64,000 nt of DNA from Immundisolibacter cernigliae (GTDB taxonomy: Bacteria; Pseudomonadota; Gammaproteobacteria; Immundisolibacterales; Immundisolibacteraceae), in the NCBI RefSeq assembly GCF_001697225.1, contig NZ_CP014671.1, forward strand, positions 1,240,001-1,304,000. Direction: 5' to 3'. Shown in pieces: positions 49,993 to 62,909 of the stretch. The notes under the pieces are model-generated. The model had not been told where the DNA came from. It ran no database searches and worked only from the letters and a program-made list of their open reading frames with translations. Positions within the stretch are counted from its first letter, which is position 1. The number at the start of each line of letters is the position of its first letter. The position numbers were made by a program, and so were the translations under genes.

Positions 49993-50160
49993 GGGTCCAT
50001 TCGGCCCGAGGGCGGGCCTCCCACAAATGGCCAATCGTGGGAGCGGCGCCCTCGCCGCGAATCTCCAAGGCCGACCCTTCCAGGCCAACCCTTCGGCCCG
50101 ATGCCGGGCCTCCCACAACCACACCCAGCGTGGGAGCGGCGCCCCCGCCGCGAATCTTCC
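49993..50160 (+). repeat. Tandem pair of dispersed palindromic repeats, family 2
   Basis: Two units about 93 bases apart. Each has CATTCGGCCCGA/CCTTCGGCCCGA with GGGCCTCCCAC (50000-50024; 50093-50117) and then GTGGGAGCGGCGCC with CGCCGCGAATCT (50038-50066; 50129-50157). CCTCCCAC and GTGGGAG pair, so each unit forms a long stem. They fill the 312-base gap between divergent gldA-like and Nit-family genes, which contains no other feature I can see. Confidence 0.65.
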
Positions 50161-51167: not shown

Positions 51168-52238
51168 ATGAGTATTCTTGTCACCGGTGGCGCCGGTTTT
51201 ATCGGCGCGAATTTCGTTCTGGACTGGCTGGTCCAATCCGATGAAACGGTCATCAACCTCGACCTGCTCACCTATGCCGGCAATCGTGAGAATCTGTCCT
51301 CGCTGGGCAGCGATGGACGGCATGTCTTTGTGCAAGGCGACATCGGCGATTCCAGCCTGGTGACCCAACTGCTCGCCAAGCATCAACCCCGCGCCATCGT
51401 CAACTTTGCCGCCGAAAGCCATGTGGACCGCTCCATCCACGGCCCGGAAGACTTCGTCCAGACCAACATCGTGGGCACCTTTCGCCTGCTGGAAGCCGCG
51501 CGCGGCTACTGGAACAGCCTGCAAGGCGACGCCAAGCAAGGCTTCCGCCTCCTGCACGTCTCCACCGATGAGGTCTATGGCTCACTCGGCAAGGACGACA
51601 CCGCCTTTACCGAAACACATCGCTACGAACCCAACAGCCCGTATTCGGCGAGCAAGGCCGCCAGCGATCATCTGGTACGCGCTTACCATCACACCTACGG
51701 CTTGCCGGTTCTCACCACCAACTGCTCCAACAACTACGGACCGTACCAATTCCCGGAAAAGCTCATCCCGCTGATGATCGTCAATGCACTCGCGGGCAAG
51801 CCCCTGCCCGTGTATGGCGATGGCCAGCAGATCCGTGACTGGCTCTACGTCAAGGACCATTGCAGCGCGATTCGCCGCGTACTGGAAGCCGGCAAGGTCG
51901 GTGAAACCTACAACATCGGCGGCTGGAACGAAAAACCGAACATCGAGATCGTCCAACTGGTGTGTTCGCTGCTCGACGAATTCCGGCCCCGCGCAGATGG
52001 CCAACGCTATAGCGAGCAAATCACCTACGTCACCGACCGTCCCGGCCATGATCGCCGCTACGCCATCGACGCCAGCAAAATTGCGGTCGAGCTCGGCTGG
52101 AAGCCGGCCGAAACCTTCGATACCGGCATCCGAAAAACCCTTGAGTGGTATCTGGAAAACCAGGACTGGGTCGCCCATGTCCAATCCGGCAGCTACCGTG
52201 ACTGGGTTGAAAAGAACTACGCTGGGCGCGCCGCATGA
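51168..52238 (+). CDS. rfbB: dTDP-glucose 4,6-dehydratase
   Basis: Converts dTDP-glucose to dTDP-4-keto-6-deoxyglucose, second step of dTDP-rhamnose synthesis. The 356-residue short-chain dehydrogenase fold shows TGGAGFIG (NAD binding, 6-13), AAESHVDRSI, the catalytic STDEVYG and YSASKAASDHLVRAY, plus NNYGPYQFPEKLIPL. It overlaps rfbD by four bases (ATGA). The third gene of the usual set, rfbA, is only a stub downstream and rfbC is absent from the window. Confidence 0.96.
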   Translation: MSILVTGGAGFIGANFVLDWLVQSDETVINLDLLTYAGNRENLSSLGSDGRHVFVQGDIGDSSLVTQLLAKHQPRAIVNFAAESHVDRSIHGPEDFVQTNIVGTFRLLEAARGYWNSLQGDAKQGFRLLHVSTDEVYGSLGKDDTAFTETHRYEPNSPYSASKAASDHLVRAYHHTYGLPVLTTNCSNNYGPYQFPEKLIPLMIVNALAGKPLPVYGDGQQIRDWLYVKDHCSAIRRVLEAGKVGETYNIGGWNEKPNIEIVQLVCSLLDEFRPRADGQRYSEQITYVTDRPGHDRRYAIDASKIAVELGWKPAETFDTGIRKTLEWYLENQDWVAHVQSGSYRDWVEKNYAGRAA

Positions 52239-53137
52239 CAATCCTCCTGTTCGGGAAGAACGGGCAGGTCGGCTGGGAGCTTCAACGCAGCCTGGCCCCC
52301 TTGGGTGAAGTGATCGCGCTGGCCTCCGGCAGCCGGGAGCTATGCGGCGATTTCACCAATCTGGAAGGCATCGCCCAGACGGTTCGCGCAGTCGCCCCGG
52401 ACATCATCGTCAATGCCGCTGCGCACACCGCCGTCGACCAGGCCGAGAGCGAGCCCGAGCTGGCCCGCACCCTCAACGCGCTGGCCCCGGGCGTGCTGGC
52501 GCATGAAGCCCTGCGCAGCGGCGCATGGCTGGTGCACTACTCCACCGATTATGTGTTCGATGGCAGCGGCGACAAGCCGTGGTCGGAAACCGACCCTACC
52601 GGCCCGCTCAACGTCTACGGACAAACCAAACTCGAAGGCGAAACAGCCATCCGTTGCAGTGGCTGCAAGCACCTCATCTTCCGCACCAGTTGGGTGTACG
52701 CGGCGCGCGGCGGCAATTTCGCCCAAACCATGCTGCGACTGGCCCGGGAGCGCGACCGCCTCAGCGTCATTCACGACCAGATCGGCGCACCCACCGGAGC
52801 CGACCTGCTGGCGGATGTCACCGCCCACGCCCTGCGCACCGCAAGGCAACGCCCCGAGCTTGGCGGCCTGTATCACCTGGTGGCCAGCGGCGAGACCTCC
52901 TGGTATGACTACGCCCTCTTCGTGATTGACCATGCTCGCCAGGCCGGCGTCCACATCAAGGTCGCACCCGAGTCCATCCACCCCGTTCCCACCAGCGCAT
53001 TTCCCACCGCCGCGAGGCGCCCGCTCAACTCGCGCCTGGAATCCCGCAAACTGCAAACCACATTCGGCCTGCACCTGCCCCACTGGCAAGACGGAATCAC
53101 CCGCATGCTGACCGAAGTACTCGAGAAACGATCATGA
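52235..53137 (+). CDS. rfbD: dTDP-4-dehydrorhamnose reductase
   Basis: A 300-residue NADPH-dependent reductase producing dTDP-rhamnose. Cofactor motif FGKNGQVGWEL at the N-terminus, HYSTDYVFDGSG, catalytic YGQTKLEGE and FRTSWVYAARGGNFAQTML are all visible. It overlaps both rfbB and the rfbA remnant by a few bases, the typical rfbBDA packing. Without rfbC (epimerase) and a complete rfbA nearby, the pathway needs copies elsewhere in the genome to work. Confidence 0.95.
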   Translation: MTILLFGKNGQVGWELQRSLAPLGEVIALASGSRELCGDFTNLEGIAQTVRAVAPDIIVNAAAHTAVDQAESEPELARTLNALAPGVLAHEALRSGAWLVHYSTDYVFDGSGDKPWSETDPTGPLNVYGQTKLEGETAIRCSGCKHLIFRTSWVYAARGGNFAQTMLRLARERDRLSVIHDQIGAPTGADLLADVTAHALRTARQRPELGGLYHLVASGETSWYDYALFVIDHARQAGVHIKVAPESIHPVPTSAFPTAARRPLNSRLESRKLQTTFGLHLPHWQDGITRMLTEVLEKRS

Positions 53138-53612: not shown

Positions 53613-54680
53613 CCTGATTAGCGCCAATCTTCAGCACGGCCGGTAAACCGGCACGTTGCGTAGTGCTGATTCAGGCCAGGGCGGGCAGGCAGCGGCGGTG
53701 ACCAGCAGGCGCGGCACCAGGGCCTTGAGGTTGAAGCGGCGGTTAAAGCGCCAGGCGGCCTCGGCCAGGTAGCGCTCAGCGTACTTGAAGAAGCCAAACG
53801 CATGACAGGTACCGTCCAGGGAGCGCTTGAGGTTGCCCAGCACGACGTTGACCCAGCGGGCGCCGTCGACTTCAGTGCCGGCCTTGCCCGGCGGGGCCTG
53901 AATCACGGTATGGGCATGGCGCTGTGCGACGGCCCGAAACGCCCCCAGCCCATCGCTGTAAACCTCGGCCCCCGGTGCCAGGCGGCGGATTGCCCAGTCG
54001 GCAAGGGCCGTCTTGCTGAAGGCGGACACCGGCTCGATGACCGCCTGGCGCGGATGGCCGGCCTCATCGGTGGCCACGGCGATCAGAAACGGGCGCTTGT
54101 TTTCCGAGCCCCGGCCGGCTTTGCCGCCGGTCCGCTCGCCGCCCAGGTAGGCGTCGTCGACCTGGACGATCCCCTCCAGCTGTCGACCCGCCTCACGGGC
54201 GGTCATGGCCTGCATGAGCTTGTGTTTGATGCGCCAGGCGCTGCGGTAGCACACGCCCAGGTGCCGGCGCAGCTCCAGGGCGGCGATGGCGTTCTTGCTC
54301 TGACTGATCAGGTACAGGGCCAGAAACCACGTGGTCAGCGGCAGCTTGCTGCTGGCGAACACCGTGCCGGCCCGCAGACTGGTCTGGGCACGGCAGGCAC
54401 GGCACTGCCAGTAGGCCTGACCGAAACGCTGGAACCGGTGGGCATTCGCACCCGCGCAGCGCGAGCAGACAAACCCGGCCGGCCAGCGGGCCTGCGCGAG
54501 CGCCTGCTCACAGGCCGCCTCGGTGCCGTAGATGTGCAGGAACTCGGGCAAACTCAAGCCCGGCTGAAATTGAACGCGGTTCATGGGCATCGGCGTGGCC
54601 TTGGTTTGGAACGGGACCACTACCCTACGCCCCCACTGTCCCGGATCCTGAGACGGTGCTGAAGATTGGCGCTAATCAGG
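53613..54680 (-). mobile_element. IS1595-family insertion sequence (1068 bp)
   Basis: The ends are perfect inverted repeats CCTGATTAGCGCCAATCTTC continuing AGCAC (53613-53637 and 54656-54680), flanked by an 8-bp target duplication TTGACTCA (53605-53612 and 54681-54688). Eight-base duplications are the rule for IS1595. It carries one transposase gene and lies at the very end of the sulfotransferase coding sequence, replacing its last codons. Confidence 0.92.
53631..54584 (-). CDS. IS1595-family (ISXO2-like) transposase
   Basis: A transposase of about 317 residues from the ATG at 54584 (MNRVQFQPGL); an in-frame start at 54620 would add 12. An N-terminal zinc ribbon (FVCSRCAGAN with YWQCRACRAQ) precedes the ISXO2-like domain. 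Catalytic acidic residues are in VQVDDAYLGGER and VYSDGLGAF; the third position appears to be Asn/Lys (VVLGNLKRSLDG), as in the DDNK-type members. The stop lies just inside the inverted repeat. It looks intact. Confidence 0.9.
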   Translation of the reverse strand: MNRVQFQPGLSLPEFLHIYGTEAACEQALAQARWPAGFVCSRCAGANAHRFQRFGQAYWQCRACRAQTSLRAGTVFASSKLPLTTWFLALYLISQSKNAIAALELRRHLGVCYRSAWRIKHKLMQAMTAREAGRQLEGIVQVDDAYLGGERTGGKAGRGSENKRPFLIAVATDEAGHPRQAVIEPVSAFSKTALADWAIRRLAPGAEVYSDGLGAFRAVAQRHAHTVIQAPPGKAGTEVDGARWVNVVLGNLKRSLDGTCHAFGFFKYAERYLAEAAWRFNRRFNLKALVPRLLVTAAACPPWPESALRNVPVYRPC

Positions 54681-55353
54681 TTGACTCAAGCTTTTCTTTG
54701 GCAAGGCGGTAGACCTCCACGTCTCGTTCGCAATGCTTGTAGATTTCCTTGCGATCGCTCTCGGTAATCTTCGCGGCAGGCATTTTTTGTGACGATGCTG
54801 GCTTCTCGTTGACCGTCGGGACGCCGTCGAACCAGCCGAGGTATTCCGTGATCTCCGGCTTGTTGAACAACGTACAGAACTTCCTCAGGCTGTACTCGAA
54901 CTGCTCCTGCACGAAGATGAAGTCGTAATCCTTGACGGGACGACCCTCGAGGTAATACCACTGCGCGTTGCCAATGTACTTGAATTTAGAGAACTCGACG
55001 ACGTCGATCTCGCCGTCCATTACCATGCGGTGCTGCTTGATGTTGCGGTCGCCGCTTCTCAGCACATGCAGGTACTGGGAGATCACGCGGTCGGCCGGGT
55101 CGCGCACGGTGGTGATGAAGGGGGAGTCTGCGAACACCTCGGCGTATTTCAGGTAATGGAAATGCCCGTGCAGGTAGCTGAAGTAGGAAAGCACTAAATC
55201 CTTGTGATCCCGCACCTCAGGCAGGCAGGTTCGAACCGCCTCAATGTCGCGCTCGCTACCGTAGTCGTACATGATCCGGCGCAGGGAGGTATCATCGAAG
55301 ATCTTGGCGAGCGCCGTGCCGGCGGTCTTGGGAATATGGATGGAAACGAACAT
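54676..55353 (-). CDS. Sulfotransferase-family protein, 3' end altered by IS insertion
   Basis: A 225-residue protein with the PAPS-binding motifs of sulfotransferases: FVSIHIPKTAGTALAKIF at the start (5'-phosphosulfate loop) and TTVRDPADRVISQYLHVL (3'-phosphate motif). It probably sulfates a carbohydrate in the surface-glycan pathway. The last codons GAG-TCA-ACC-TGA (EST) run into the IS1595-type inverted repeat; before insertion the end would have been ESMQ. The change is minor, so the protein may still work. It starts two bases after the methyltransferase stop. Confidence 0.78.
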   Translation of the reverse strand: MFVSIHIPKTAGTALAKIFDDTSLRRIMYDYGSERDIEAVRTCLPEVRDHKDLVLSYFSYLHGHFHYLKYAEVFADSPFITTVRDPADRVISQYLHVLRSGDRNIKQHRMVMDGEIDVVEFSKFKYIGNAQWYYLEGRPVKDYDFIFVQEQFEYSLRKFCTLFNKPEITEYLGWFDGVPTVNEKPASSQKMPAAKITESDRKEIYKHCERDVEVYRLAKEKLEST

Positions 55354-55355
55354 CT

Positions 55356-57314
55356 TTACTCGCTTTCTGACTTGTTTGGGGGAAATCCGGGCAGCAGCTT
55401 CAGCCCGGCCATGATCCGGTACAGGGGACGATCGACCGCATGGCGCAGCGCGGCGAGGTCGCGGTTCTTCACAGTGAGCTCATGGTCCTTCGCGGCGACT
55501 TCACTCGAGATCTTGATTTCGGCTTTCCTGTGCGCCTCGAGTTCCGCCTTGAGATTATCGATTGCCTGCCTGTGCGCCGCAAGCTCTCGGTTCTTCACAG
55601 TGAGTTCATGGTCCTTCGCGGCGACGTCACCCCAGAGCTTGATCTCGGCTTTTTTGTGCGCCTCGAGTTCCGCCTTGAGATCGTCGATTGCCTGCCTGTG
55701 CGCCGCAAGCTCGCGGTTCTTCACAGTGAGCTCATGGTCCTTCGCGGCGACTTCACTCGAGATCTTGATTTCGGCTTTCCTGTGCGCCTCGAGTTCCGCC
55801 TTGAGATTATCGATTGCCTGCCTGTGCGCCGCAAGCTCTCGGTTCTTCACAGTGAGTTCATGGTCCTTCGCGGCGACGTCACCCCAGAGCTTGATCTCGG
55901 CTTTTTTGTGCGCCTCGAGTTCCGCCTTGAGATCGTCGATTGCCTGCCTGTGCGCCGCAAGCTCGCGGTTCTTCACAGTGAGCTCATGGTCCTTCGCGGC
56001 GACTTGACTCGAGATCTTGATTTCGGCTTTCCTGTGCGCCTCGAGTTCCGCCTTGAGATTATCGATTGCCTGCCTGTGCGCCGCAAGCTCGCCGCACAAG
56101 CCAGCGACGGCCTTGAAGCGCTCGACCAAGTAGCCAACTAACTCCTTGCCCATTGCTCTAACCTGTACCTCTATCTCGACCATGTCGACCGGGTGCGGCA
56201 GCGCGAACTCGACCCAGGGGTCGTCGCCGAACAACAGCACGTTTTGCTCGGTGCTGAGAGCTGAACTACCTGTGCTGTCCAGCGCGTGCCATACGCCCTC
56301 GTCGTCCCGCCACCGAGCAGAGACGCTGTCGAGCGCGATTGCCTCGTTGCCGGGGTCGAAGCGAAGTCGCGAGAGGCCAGTGGAAAACCGGCTCAGGTCG
56401 AAGCGGACAACACCCCTGCCCGCTTCGAGTTCGAGGGCATGAATCAGCTTTTCGCTTTCGTTGAAGCCCCGGCCGCGATCCAGGAATAGCTCGCAATCGA
56501 GGTTCACACTTTCCTCGTTAGTCACGTTGCCAAAACGCCGCTGGTAGTCGATGGCCTCGTTGGGCAAACCGGCCAGCGCAACACGCTCGAACATGGCCTG
56601 CAGCGGTTCCGGATCTTCGTTCGCCAGTTCGATGAATACCCGGAGTGCCGGTTCGACCTCAGTGCCGACCAGCAATACGCCCAGGCCATGGCTGTGTAGG
56701 AATTCGAAGCCTGCGTGCTGCTCGCGCAGTTCCGCCCACACATGGTGAACGCCGAAACCGCGGTCGAACACACTGGTGTCGTGGAACAGCACCACACTAC
56801 GTGGACTCAGCTTGCGCTTCCAGGCATCGTAGTCGTGACGTACAGCCTCGTAGCTGTGCAGGCCGTCGATATGCAGGAGGTCGATAGCGCCATCATCGAA
56901 CTGGTCCAGTGCTTCGTCGAAGGACGTCCGCAGCAGCCTGGCGAAGCCGCCATAGGCCAATTCCACGTAGGGCGCGAGTTCCGCGTAAACGGCGTCACCA
57001 TAGTAGCCGGCTTGGGCGTCGCCGCCCCAAGTGTCAACCGCGTAGCAGCGGGTGTCCAAAGCTTCCGCGGCCACCGCCTGGCAGAATCCGCAGAATGAGT
57101 TGCCGGTGTGCGTGCCCAACTCAACAACCACACGCGGTTGCATGAGACGGATGAGCACATGCGCAAAAGGCAGGTGGCCGACCCAGGAGAACGGCCGCAC
57201 CAGCCGCGCGGCCGTTCGCAGCATTACAGTGCCCAGGCCATACTCTTGGAACAGCCGTTCCTGCCGAGGGTTGAGCCCGCGCACCAGTGCGGACGTGGTT
57301 GTCGTCTCGTTCAT
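55356..57314 (-). CDS. Class I methyltransferase with long tandem-repeat coiled coil
   Basis: A 652-residue protein. Residues ~55-215 form a Methyltransf_24-type SAM-dependent domain (RVVVELGTHTGNSFCGFCQA, AIDLLHIDGLHSYEAVRHDY, SPRSVVLFHDTSVFD). A beta-rich region follows (about 280-390). Residues 409-618 are five 42-residue repeats (ELAAHRQAIDNLKAELEAHR...), each six heptads long, predicted to make a continuous coiled coil. The tail (RPLYRIMAGLKLLPGFPP) is short and amphipathic. It overlaps the glycosyltransferase stop (ATGA). By analogy with WbdD, a chain-terminating methyltransferase whose coiled coil measures O-antigen length, it may cap and size the glycan; no kinase domain is present and this role is inference. 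Confidence 0.8.
   Translation of the reverse strand: MNETTTTSALVRGLNPRQERLFQEYGLGTVMLRTAARLVRPFSWVGHLPFAHVLIRLMQPRVVVELGTHTGNSFCGFCQAVAAEALDTRCYAVDTWGGDAQAGYYGDAVYAELAPYVELAYGGFARLLRTSFDEALDQFDDGAIDLLHIDGLHSYEAVRHDYDAWKRKLSPRSVVLFHDTSVFDRGFGVHHVWAELREQHAGFEFLHSHGLGVLLVGTEVEPALRVFIELANEDPEPLQAMFERVALAGLPNEAIDYQRRFGNVTNEESVNLDCELFLDRGRGFNESEKLIHALELEAGRGVVRFDLSRFSTGLSRLRFDPGNEAIALDSVSARWRDDEGVWHALDSTGSSALSTEQNVLLFGDDPWVEFALPHPVDMVEIEVQVRAMGKELVGYLVERFKAVAGLCGELAAHRQAIDNLKAELEAHRKAEIKISSQVAAKDHELTVKNRELAAHRQAIDDLKAELEAHKKAEIKLWGDVAAKDHELTVKNRELAAHRQAIDNLKAELEAHRKAEIKISSEVAAKDHELTVKNRELAAHRQAIDDLKAELEAHKKAEIKLWGDVAAKDHELTVKNRELAAHRQAIDNLKAELEAHRKAEIKISSEVAAKDHELTVKNRDLAALRHAVDRPLYRIMAGLKLLPGFPPNKSESE
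55461..56090 (-). repeat. Five tandem 126-bp coding repeats (ABABA)
   Basis: Units at 55461-55586, 55587-55712, 55713-55838, 55839-55964 and 55965-56090. Units 1 and 3 are identical, units 2 and 4 are identical, and unit 5 differs from unit 1 by one base (Glu to Gln). Types A (..HRKAEIKISS..) and B (..HKKAEIKLWGD..) alternate, so the real duplication unit is a 252-bp dimer. The exact identity points to recent expansion or ongoing gene conversion. Confidence 0.95.
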
Positions 57315-58789
57315 GCGCGCAGCATTTCCTTGATGCGATCCATTACTTCTTCATTGAATGCATCGTCCCAGTTCCTCACCCAGTCGAACGAGGCACGTTT
57401 TATCCGCGATTCGTACTGCCCCACTCGCGCGACTGCCGCTGCAAGAGCTTCGGCGACAGAGAACGGATCCGCATCGCATGGCTCAAGGTTTCCGGATATG
57501 GACCGTAGCACATCGGCGGACCGGGACTCGTACGCGTTGGTGACGACAATCTGGCCGGCCGAGGCCATCTCGAACGGCAGGATGCTCGGATGCGGCGCCA
57601 GCATGAGGCTGAGTCCGATGTCGAACTCGCGCAGCGCGGCACCATAGTCGCCCTGCGGCAGTGTCCCGCTCAGCTTCATTGTGCGGCCATGTCCCAGTTC
57701 GACGTCGTACTCGGGTCCGAGCGTACCCACCCCGTGGAACTCCCAGTTGCCATCGAACATGCCCTGGCGGATCGCCTCCCTGAGGCCGAGGATACCGATC
57801 TCGAACAGGTTGCGACGCGCGTGTCCCTCGGGTCGCCCGTAGAAAAGCAGGCGCCGAGTGCGGCGCTGCGCCATCTGCTCGTGCGTCGGCGGCGAAGTTG
57901 GCGTCAGCGCATGTTGGAAGGCCACGTGATGCCGCGCCAGTTCCTCCCCCTCGTAGCGGTCGAACACACCCAGCCGCTTGCTCCGGAAATAGTCCGCCAG
58001 AAGGTCAGTATTGAAAATGGCGCGATGCGGTAGCCGGTACACGTACCCACCGATCGCGGAGTAGCTATCGTGCGGATGGAAGATGGGTTCGTACTCCTGC
58101 AGGAAGAATATAAACTTTTTGCCGATAGCCTCTGCGAGGCGATGAGCCTTGATGCACGTCCAAAACGAATAGCCGACGAAGGCGTCCGTCGGCGAGATCA
58201 CCAAAGTGTGGGAGCCCCTTGTGATGTCCTCGACCTCGGCGTTGGCAACTGCCTGTTGAAGTGGTGGATTCGGCGCCAGCTTGGCGTTCACCGCATCGCG
58301 GTCTAAGCGATCGGATTCGACCAGCAGAATCCGCACCCGGAAACCTGCCTCCTGGATCTTCCGGATGAACTGCAAGCAGGCGATGTAACCGCCAAACATG
58401 ATCAGCGGATCGAGTTGCGGTAGCAACACGTTAACCCGTGCTGGCGCGCTTGGGTCAACGGCATACTTTGGACATTCAAATTTTTCCTCTAAGAGATGAA
58501 GCGAACTCATTCCGACCGGAGCAGTAATACCCGGATAACGCGATTCAAGTTCTTTTGCTTTCCGGATGCCAGGTGAAGCTGAATCGTCTACGTTGCCGAT
58601 ACACGTTTCACCTTGATCCTGATTGACGGCCTCTGCCACTAAAGCCACAACAGTTGAAGGCCTATGTCTTTTAATCGCGGCAAGCAAACTGCGGGTATTT
58701 TGGAAATTAACTTTCTTGATCATTACCCATGGATGTGCCACAAAAAGACGGGCCAATCCGATTATCAACAAAGATATACTATTTTCCAC
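57311..58789 (-). CDS. WsaF-like glycosyltransferase
   Basis: A glycosyltransferase of up to 492 residues. The C-terminal two thirds resembles the rhamnosyltransferase WsaF/RgpF group: VNVLLPQLDPLIMFGGYIAC, FFLQEYEPIFHPHDSYSAIG, AIFNTDLLADYFRSKRLGVF, LLFYGRPEGHARRNLFEIG and SLMLAPHPSILPFEMASAG. It probably adds a sugar, plausibly rhamnose given rfbB/rfbD nearby, to a surface glycan. The N-terminal ~115 residues are less GC-rich and match nothing I recognise; GTG at 58789 is the first available start, but the frame stays open upstream to about 58925, so the true 5' end is uncertain and may be damaged. Confidence 0.72.
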   Translation of the reverse strand: MENSISLLIIGLARLFVAHPWVMIKKVNFQNTRSLLAAIKRHRPSTVVALVAEAVNQDQGETCIGNVDDSASPGIRKAKELESRYPGITAPVGMSSLHLLEEKFECPKYAVDPSAPARVNVLLPQLDPLIMFGGYIACLQFIRKIQEAGFRVRILLVESDRLDRDAVNAKLAPNPPLQQAVANAEVEDITRGSHTLVISPTDAFVGYSFWTCIKAHRLAEAIGKKFIFFLQEYEPIFHPHDSYSAIGGYVYRLPHRAIFNTDLLADYFRSKRLGVFDRYEGEELARHHVAFQHALTPTSPPTHEQMAQRRTRRLLFYGRPEGHARRNLFEIGILGLREAIRQGMFDGNWEFHGVGTLGPEYDVELGHGRTMKLSGTLPQGDYGAALREFDIGLSLMLAPHPSILPFEMASAGQIVVTNAYESRSADVLRSISGNLEPCDADPFSVAEALAAAVARVGQYESRIKRASFDWVRNWDDAFNEEVMDRIKEMLRA

Positions 58790-60450: not shown

Positions 60451-61422
60451 CTATATGTCACGTCCCGGCCGATTATTTGGCCTTCGATGAAACAGCTCCG
60501 GTTTTGAAGCGTACCAGTGCTGAAGCGCTTGAGCCGGAGTCTGGGCGTTCAGTGCCTTCTGCGGCAAGTGGTGGTTGTAGAGCGTGACATAGCGGTGCAG
60601 GGTCTGCTCCAGGTCCTCGCTGGACCTGAAGTGGTGCGTGCGCAGCAGGTCCGCGATGCGCCCGTTGAAGCGCTCGACCATGCCATTGGTCTGCGGGTGG
60701 CGCGGGGGCGTCAGACGGTGCTCGATGCCCAGTTCCTGGCACAGGCGATCGAACTCATGCGTCCCGGTCGGGGCCCGCGCCCGGCTCCCGAACAGCCGGT
60801 CCGTGAACTCGGTGCCGTTGTCGGTGAGCAGGCGCGTGATGCGCACCGGGCAGGCCGTGGCCAGGGCACTGAGGAAGGCGCGCGCCGAGCGCGCGCTCTT
60901 GTCGGCTTTCAGGGCCACGTAAACCCAGCGGGTGGCCCGATCGATGGCCACGAACAGGAACCGGCGCCGGTCCTCGTCGGCCATCTGCGGCAGGTACTTC
61001 ACGTCGACGTGCACAAAGCCGGGCACGTAGGTCTTGAAGGTCTTGCTGACCGCTTTGTCCGGCGCCGGGCGCAGGGCGCGCAGGTTGCCCACGCCGTGGC
61101 GGCGCAGGCAGCGGTCCAGCCCGGAGCGGGACACGTCCGGACACAGGAACTCGCGCGTCACCGCCAGCAGGTCGTCCAGCGGCAGCAGCAGGGCCCGGCG
61201 CAGGTAGACCACGATCGCCTCCTGGCCGGGGGTCAACGTCGTTTGCAGGCGGTGCGCGGTGTGCGGCCGGTCGTAGACATCCGGGCGCCGCTTCCATTTG
61301 TAGATCGTCGGCTCGGTGACGCCAAAGCGGCGGGCCAGCACCGCCACCGGCTCATCACTGGCCGCGATCTGCGCCCGCACGTGGGGCGTGGTGCGGGCTT
61401 GTTTGTGCAGTGCAATCAGCAT
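60451..61422 (-). CDS. IS481-family transposase, copy 2
   Basis: A 323-residue transposase identical to the one at 18722-19693 except for the last residue (Ile instead of Ser). That codon and the stop (TAG, 60451-60453) come from the target site, not the element. Helix-turn-helix and all three acidic catalytic residues are present, so it should be active. It is encoded on the same strand as the MBOAT gene it interrupts. Confidence 0.93.
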   Translation of the reverse strand: MLIALHKQARTTPHVRAQIAASDEPVAVLARRFGVTEPTIYKWKRRPDVYDRPHTAHRLQTTLTPGQEAIVVYLRRALLLPLDDLLAVTREFLCPDVSRSGLDRCLRRHGVGNLRALRPAPDKAVSKTFKTYVPGFVHVDVKYLPQMADEDRRRFLFVAIDRATRWVYVALKADKSARSARAFLSALATACPVRITRLLTDNGTEFTDRLFGSRARAPTGTHEFDRLCQELGIEHRLTPPRHPQTNGMVERFNGRIADLLRTHHFRSSEDLEQTLHRYVTLYNHHLPQKALNAQTPAQALQHWYASKPELFHRRPNNRPGRDI

Positions 61423-61535
61423 GCGGACACCTCCCGATCAACCGCTTTCCCGTCCCCTGCCAGCTCCCGGAACACCTCGCGCGCCAGCAGCAGCGGGGAC
61501 CGAGACGGAACTATATGATGATCCGGGATGGAACA
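60456..61535 (-). mobile_element. IS481-family insertion sequence, copy 2 (1080 bp)
   Basis: Same length and ends as the copy at 18609-19688, in the opposite orientation. A 6-bp target duplication GCTATA flanks it (60450-60455 and 61536-61541). The lack of visible differences between copies implies recent movement of one or both. Inverted copies 41 kb apart could support inversion of the intervening DNA. Confidence 0.92.
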
Positions 61536-62909
61536 GCTATACAGGGTTGAAAGGATCAGGACGCCGTACCTCACAGCGGCAGCCTTCACTTGCCGAATCT
61601 GATCAGCCCACGACGACCGTTCCGGCCACACAGCGACGATAGCGCCGAGCAGCAGCACGCACACGACATAGGGGTTGAACAACGCTGCAACGCCAGAGAA
61701 CGCAGGCGCTTCCGCGAACCCGGCCATGGTTTTGAGCAAGACCATGGCCGATGGCAGATCGTCCGCGCGGAAGAAGACCCATCCGAGCAACGCCACACCA
61801 GCGACGTAGATGTGTGCCAGCGGCGCCCAGGCACGGCTCAGCCATCCGGCGAAGCCGACTCGCTCGACGACCAGGAATAGACCATGTATCAAGCCCCAGA
61901 TCAGGAAATTCCAACTCGCGCCGTGCCAGAAGCCGGTTAGCACAAAGATCGCGAGCAGATTGACATAAGTTCTCGCAAGCCCGAGCCGGTTGCCTCCCAG
62001 AGGAATGTAGACGTAATCACGGAACCAGCGTGACAGTGTCATGTGCCAGCGCCGCCAGAATTCCTGGATGCTGCGGGCTCGGTAAGGCTGGTTGAAGTTC
62101 TCGGGAAAATCAAATCCCAGCGCCCGGCCGATACCAATGGCCATGTCTGAGTAGCCTGAGAAATCGAAAAAGATCTGCAATGCAAAGCAGATCACGCCGA
62201 GCCACGCCAGGCCAAAGCTCAACTCACTGGGTGGCAGCGCGAAGATGCGATCGACCGGAACAGCCAGGCTATCGGCAATGATGACTTTCTTGGCGAGGCC
62301 TATTGTGAACAGTTCGACACCGCTGAGCACGCGCTGCCAGTCGCTGCGCCGTGCGCGTATCTGCTCGGCAATCTCCTCGTAGCGCACGATCGGCCCGGCT
62401 ACCAATTGCGGGAACAGGCTGATGTAGAGCATCACGTCGGAAAATTTCCCCGCCGGGGAGGAATGCCTCCGGTAAATGTCCACCACATAGGTGATGGCCT
62501 GGAAGATGAAAAAGGAGATGCCCAGCGGCAGTGGCAAATGCGGTTCAGGCCAAGGCTGCAAGCCGAGGGCTGGCGCCAGGCGGTTCAGGTTGTGGACAAT
62601 GAAGTCAAGGTACTTGAATGCCACCAGCACGGAGACGTTGAGCGCCACCGCGGTTGCGAGGTAGCGAAATCGATAGGGCGAGTCGCCACCAACCAGTCGA
62701 CCAAACAGGTAGTTGACCCATGCCACTGCCACCATGAGCAGTACCAGCACCGGCTCTCCCCAGGCATAGAAGATCAGGCTAGCGACGAGCAGGACAAGAT
62801 TCTTGCGCGGCAGCAGCGCATAGGCCAGCGCGAACAGCGGCAGGAAGACCAACAGGAAGATGGGGGTGCTGAAAACCATGGTCAGTCCAAGGAGGGCGTC
62901 ATCGCACGC

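Follow-up and report, generated by a model that had tools for sequence, protein, structure and literature searches.

Proof that a coiled coil acts as a ruler for surface polysaccharides exists for just a handful of enteric O-antigens. For WbdD of Escherichia coli O9a, altering the length of the spacer, which keeps the capping enzyme roughly 20 nm away from the membrane, alters chain length (PMC5082667). The O8 WbdD protein carries a methyltransferase alone and no kinase (PMC3482155). In Geobacillus stearothermophilus, the rhamnan of the S-layer glycan is capped with a methyl group by WsaE, which is found beside WsaF (PMC2943079). For E. coli O101, a methyltransferase with a coiled coil was shown to be needed for O-methylation, and a ruler function was proposed (PMC13168486). 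Variation in coil length among putative group 3 capsule methyltransferases has also been noted earlier and was deemed not critical for K antigen production (PMC13171606).

Here we describe a 652-amino-acid protein of Immundisolibacter cernigliae that appears to join this known class. Comparable putative methyltransferases whose coiled coils vary have been noted in earlier work. It is encoded within the 64,000-nucleotide stretch of DNA that was analyzed, referred to here as the window. Like WbdD of E. coli O8/O9a and Klebsiella pneumoniae O5/O3, it has an N-terminal methyltransferase, a long predicted helical spacer, and a short C-terminal segment and belongs to a wzm-wzt locus; however, it possesses an extra beta domain and a rod made of near-identical repeats, its Wzt lacks a cap-binding domain, and the associated sugar pathway is that of rhamnose rather than mannose. 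The pairing of a putative capping methyltransferase with WsaF and wzm-wzt is reminiscent of WsaE/WsaF (PMC2943079, PMC3898925), but WsaE is a fusion of a methyltransferase with two rhamnosyltransferases, whereas the protein described here combines a methyltransferase with a rod and contains no transferase of this kind. By description, the E. coli O101/O162 enzymes are similar in having one methyltransferase domain, a C-terminal coiled coil, and no kinase, but the glycan is a GalNAc/GlcNAc polymer (PMC13168486). The group 3 capsule (kpsDMTE) enzymes of E. coli belong to the same family, with about 52% identity over the enzyme and a very long, variable coil, and their ATPase of about 216 residues is, like the Wzt found here, too short for a cap-binding domain; they differ in using an exporter other than Wzm-Wzt, in having a coil without near-identical repeats, and in their neighbors. 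Lastly, the K. pneumoniae O4, O7, and O12 systems, in which glycan assembly is ABC transporter dependent, carry their terminator on the far end of a coiled-coil ruler (PMC11231755), as is proposed here, but use Kdo-transferase or methyltransferase-kinase chemistry, and the well-studied exporters have a cap-binding module. Xanthomonas WxcB, which is reported to be similar to the WbdD methyltransferase plus kinase, was dropped as proof of function, since its own role is described as obscure and the findings may include polar effects (PMC4878081).

RESULTS

Domain organization of the 652-amino-acid protein

The features of the gene and its surroundings are listed in Table 1. A preliminary description, made from the letters of the sequence and its open reading frames, had recognized a methyltransferase, and the Pfam scan bears this out: the full Methyltransf_24 model (PF13578, model positions 1 to 105) matched with an E value of 1.4e-26 and a score of 93.8 bits, compared to a curated cutoff of 26.3, and together with the AlphaFold2 model this makes the methyltransferase the N-terminal part of the spacer protein. 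The kinase noted as missing is indeed absent, as the scan revealed neither a kinase nor a glycosyltransferase domain in the 652 residues, WsaF being encoded by a separate gene. Since O8 WbdD has no kinase either (PMC3482155), this is no objection to a role as a chain terminator.

TABLE 1 Features of the putative terminator gene, its repeat array, and the surrounding locus (window coordinates except for the last line)
Feature	Coordinates	Strand	Basis
Complete gene, encoding 652 aa (methyltransferase and beta domains, repeat-built helical rod, and tail)	55356..57314	-	ORF call, Pfam, AlphaFold2
SAM-dependent O-methyltransferase domain, residues ~30-225 (Methyltransf_24 at 64-180)	56640..57227	-	Pfam, AlphaFold2, Foldseek
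Beta-sandwich domain, residues ~270-388	56151..56507	-	AlphaFold2, alignment with Rhodanobacter/Dyella relatives
Five 42-aa repeats, residues 409-618	55461..56090	-	TRF, unit-by-unit comparison
Repeat unit A1	55965-56090	-	Unit comparison
Repeat unit B1	55839-55964	-	Unit comparison
Repeat unit A2	55713-55838	-	Unit comparison
Repeat unit B2	55587-55712	-	Unit comparison
Repeat unit A3	55461-55586	-	Unit comparison
C-terminal tail, residues 619-652	55359..55460	-	Helical moment
WsaF-type glycosyltransferase (WsaF_N + WsaF_C), upstream gene, 4-bp overlap with methyltransferase gene	57311..58789	-	Pfam, E 3.1e-39
Sulfotransferase, directly downstream of methyltransferase gene	54676..55353	-	PF03567, E 4.5e-9
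AlgX-like acetylation protein, 402 aa	59183..60391	-	PF16822
MBOAT O-acyltransferase, same operon	61416..62879	-	PF03062
Sulfotransferase-like protein, conserved in Pseudomonas sp. P818	62910..63893	-	By eye (no Pfam match)
rmlB and rmlD (dTDP-rhamnose synthesis)	51168..53137	+	Pfam
rmlA, rmlC, wzm, wzt, beyond the window end	G000:C1:1304777-1307680		

The closest Foldseek match to the methyltransferase domain was the O-methyltransferase MeT1 from M. hassiacum (E value, 1.3e-8), which was also found in PDB sequences by a methyltransferase profile (E value, 1.2e-4), but many COMT-like enzymes tie with MeT1 by Z-score. We take MeT1 to be the 1-O-methyltransferase of methylmannose polysaccharide, which methylates a precursor of this mycobacterial polysaccharide. 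The profile did not find WbdD among PDB sequences up to an E value of 1, and WbdD was absent among the matches listed for the structure model, which excludes nothing; the whole protein gave no match to PDB sequences.

The repeats lie between the methyltransferase and the tail, as described previously, but a beta domain that precedes them had been missed. This domain has no Pfam or NCBIfam name and aligns with the equivalent region in the Rhodanobacter and Dyella relatives. Its structural matches, to accessory domains of dextranases, are only weak (best Z-score, 6.9; Foldseek E value, 5.6e-3), and hence we do not claim that it binds sugar. The tail is moderately amphipathic around residues 625 to 639, with a helical moment of up to 0.69, and may touch the membrane.

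A recently expanded array of 42-residue units

Tandem Repeats Finder (TRF) reported a single array at positions 55448 to 56092, with a period of 126 bp (5.1 copies, 90%) or 252 bp (2.6 copies, 98%), which is far above chance expectation. The preliminary description had counted five repeats of 42 residues, and the array does consist of five units of exactly this length, alternating as A-B-A-B-A. The DNA of units 2 and 4 is identical, as is that of units 3 and 5, and unit 1 differs from the latter two by 1 nucleotide, while A and B units are distinguished by 11 to 12 nucleotides and 6 amino acids. The array arose by recent tandem copying of a 252-bp block over an older 126-bp duplication, so that the block copied most recently comprises 84 residues (12 heptads) rather than 42. 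Two open reading frames on the plus strand (55204-56007 and 55440-56141) were rejected as genes, as they are the antisense of the repeats; long frames cross the array on this strand because 126 is divisible by 3. The gene was not found in the genus and order genomes examined, and these thus yielded no repeat-number variants of the Immundisolibacter gene.

The predicted rod

AlphaFold2 predicts a nearly continuous helix spanning residues 390 to 639, in which confidence drops near residues 481 to 490 and 565 to 570, and a COILS-type score, which is only indicative, gave a p of >0.5 across most of residues 400 to 600. A first periodicity result at 3.5 residues was dropped: when a 42-residue unit is repeated exactly, most other periods lose power, which makes such a result misleading, and it was replaced by an analysis of harmonics and shuffles. 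In this analysis, a period of 7.0 was the strongest among 21 harmonics, but the heptad order within one unit was not better than that in shuffles of the same unit (p, 0.15 to 0.27), and composition accounts for much of the coiled-coil signal as a result. The expectation that residues 400 to 640 form a coiled coil is thus matched by the helix and the COILS-type score but not by the heptad order. Taken together, the models support a helical rod well, and an oligomeric coiled coil is likely. The rod would measure from about 31 nm (repeats) to about 37 nm (entire helix). Matches of the rod to SMC and HIP1 reflect coiled-coil composition and were rejected as signs of kinship.

A probable rhamnose glycan operon with an exporter ATPase lacking Wzt_C

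The neighboring glycosyltransferase proposed earlier was identified by Pfam and phmmer as a WsaF-type enzyme, a clear homolog of the rhamnosyltransferase WsaF, whose structure has been solved (2x0e; phmmer E value, 1.5e-31). The operon runs from a family 2 glycosyltransferase gene through rmlA, rmlC, wzm, wzt, and the genes for a TylF-type methyltransferase, the sulfotransferase-like protein, MBOAT, AlgX, and WsaF to the 652-residue protein and the sulfotransferase, with the genes from the family 2 glycosyltransferase to the TylF-type methyltransferase lying on the same strand past the window end. A WecA-type transferase and an O-antigen ligase are encoded in the vicinity. The gene order from wzm to the methyltransferase gene is kept in Pseudomonas sp. 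P818 with 63 to 84% identity, and because this order is shared, the operon is probably mobile as a block. Read by eye, the rod unit of P818 seems to be one heptad shorter (35 versus 42 residues), but the contig stops inside the rod, and thus no repeat count can be obtained from it.

Two insertion elements, of the rve-type integrase and IS1595 types, are located at window positions 60451 to 61422 and 53631 to 54620. With a GC content of about 68% each, they border or interrupt the glycan operon, whose GC content is lower. Compared with P818, the final residues of MBOAT have apparently been replaced by an insertion element, and AlgX falls short of the 517-residue P818 copy by about 115 residues; both the insertion elements and the short AlgX suggest that the operon has decayed to some degree. 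A damaged, shortened rmlB remnant is present upstream of rmlA (L023:2677-3165; G000:C1:1307677-1308165); in P818, intact rmlB and rmlD genes immediately precede rmlA. Given this remnant and the separate intact rmlB-rmlD pair, the operon was probably rearranged in Immundisolibacter. Elsewhere in the window, a dispersed GC-rich repeat was noticed at positions 50037 to 50053 and 50130 to 50146. This repeat, whose core is GAGGGCGCCGCTCCCAC, occurs 53 times genome-wide with at most 1 mismatch and 0 times in a reversed control; the core is often preceded by GGAAGATTCGCGGC and followed by GTGGGAGGCCCG. The repeat resembles a family of REP-type or small mobile elements.

The locus contains both Wzm and Wzt, but the 234-residue Wzt has no Wzt_C domain (PF14524), and none was detected anywhere in the genome with a model that does match in control genomes. 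This does not fit the logic of the O8/O9a systems, in which Wzt_C reads the cap and licenses export.

Relatives of the enzyme

A whole-protein query against genome contigs gave no matches, but an alignment of the enzyme domain did retrieve relatives, and the profile built on this domain yielded 80 loci in genomes of many phyla. A Wzt was encoded within about 6 kb at 57 of these loci, mostly directly upstream, and was long in 51 cases; Wzt_C was present in 49 of the 58 Wzts compared. Short exporter ATPases occur near these enzymes in Immundisolibacter, P818, Variovorax, and Paraburkholderia (Wzt) and in E. coli (KpsT). The enzyme is followed by a coiled coil in 72 of 81 proteins by a strict criterion and in 77 by a lenient one, and rod lengths differ widely across the family. 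Seventeen family genes have tandem arrays with a period of at least 30 bp after the enzyme, and 14 of the 17 periods are multiples of 21 bp, where about 2 to 3 would be expected by chance with in-frame periods. The binomial p value of 6.5e-10 is optimistic, because any coiled coil favors periods that are multiples of 7 residues and some of the loci are related; nevertheless, a whole-heptad trend is clear. In Paraburkholderia dilworthii (948 residues) and Variovorax (1325 residues), Methyltransf_24, coil, and WsaF are fused in one protein, and both loci have a short Wzt. Fusion in two relatives is good evidence that the methyltransferase and the adjoining WsaF probably work together. Some relatives have long arrays of a noncoiled 38-residue repeat after the rod (L036, residues 430 to 877; L087, residues 467 to 678); this repeat, FDxxYYLxxNPDVAxAGxNPLxHYLxxGxxExRxPHP, belongs to an unrelated repeat family.

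In group 3 type capsule loci of E. coli, the gene that directly follows kpsDMTE encodes the same enzyme, here with a very long coil; 50 of 5,426 complete genomes carry this gene. Alleles of 910 and 857 residues differ within the coil by a block exactly 42 residues long and one single-residue gap, and an 11-bp direct repeat, CAGCAACAGCT, is located at the junction of the block; the neighboring genes also differ between these alleles. Judging from their alignment, whole-heptad length change, apparently via recombination between short repeats, is a process that occurs in nature. Annotation splits the capsule-locus gene into two reading frames in strains HMDUC-17 (L126) and F5505-C1, where it seems to be naturally disrupted, and natural disruption was likewise reported for the O101 gene (PMC13168486).

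DISCUSSION

The explanation that we consider best, and toward which the genomic context leads us to lean, is that of a terminal O-methyltransferase on a chain-length-setting rod, akin to WbdD. The 652-residue protein would be the chain-terminating O-methyltransferase of an ABC transporter-dependent, rhamnose-containing surface polysaccharide, probably an LPS O-antigen. Its tail would keep one end of the rod close to the membrane, the site at which the chain would be extended by the WsaF-type rhamnosyltransferase together with its partners, and the methyltransferase at the far end would add a methyl cap when the chain reaches that far. Since the cap would be added only once the chain reaches the enzyme, the length of the rod would fix a minimum chain length. 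Rod length could shift when blocks of 42 or 84 residues are added or lost, with the heptad register kept. Such register-preserving steps had been anticipated in the preliminary description and are seen in the family arrays and in the E. coli alleles, and the engineered WbdD spacers that it named as a reference do show that coiled-coil length sets chain length (PMC5082667). Its central proposal, a WbdD-like terminator on a rod, agrees with the wzm-wzt operon, the rml genes, the WsaF neighbor, and the relatives but not with the Wzt, which has no C-terminal cap-binding domain. The statistically weak heptad order of the unit, the low-confidence stretches of the rod model, and the signs of operon decay also count against it.

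Because of this short Wzt, capping here probably halts growth without serving as a ticket for export. Three options are conceivable: the cap only stops growth, it is recognized by other means, or the rod serves as a scaffold rather than as a ruler. It is possible, albeit doubtful at present, that coiled-coil methyltransferase terminators have a second branch, to which this protein belongs and whose members are paired with cap-blind exporters; in such a branch, the rod alone would set length and duplications of 42 or 84 residues would tune the glycan in a stepwise and heritable manner.

The strongest competing explanation, which we nonetheless hold to be rather unlikely, is that the enzyme caps or decorates the glycan while the rod assembles the polymerase complex without any ruler action, its length being nearly neutral and its repeats the product of slippage in low-complexity DNA. 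Capping by WsaE was independent of length in vitro (PMC2943079), the coil-length variation of the E. coli group 3 capsule enzymes was held not to be critical (PMC13171606), and both the widely variable rod lengths in the family and an export step that is not gated, in the absence of Wzt_C, would be in line with a mere scaffold. However, the chain length made with WbdD does depend on the length of its coiled coil (PMC5082667), and the heptad register is retained in 14 of 17 family arrays.

Improbable, in our view, is a role confined to internal decoration, in which the enzyme would methylate side groups along the chain and take no part in termination. The operon encodes several tailoring enzymes, including the second, TylF-type methyltransferase and the sulfotransferases, and a Wzt without a cap-binding domain would suit such a role, but the family adjoins a long, cap-binding Wzt at about 50 of 80 loci, and the coiled coil found in about 90% of its members would be superfluous for a plain tailoring enzyme. 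That the enzyme has a nonglycan substrate and is part of the cluster only by chance is very improbable: the COMT-like fold is common to small-molecule methyltransferases, but the syntenic operon in a second genus, the WsaF fusions in relatives, and the family-wide link to wzm-wzt all speak against it.

In summary, with a methyltransferase that would terminate chains from the end of a rod, the variant feature of the Immundisolibacter system is its cap-blind exporter, and the occurrence of such exporters beside proteins of this kind calls into question an obligatory link between capping and export. The near-identical 42-residue blocks provide a natural series for probing the ruler idea in whole steps, and the E. 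coli alleles that are six heptads apart offer a ready natural comparison, although their neighbors differ too. If a second branch does exist, it would mean that length control can be uncoupled from export and that the length of a surface glycan may be tuned in heritable steps.
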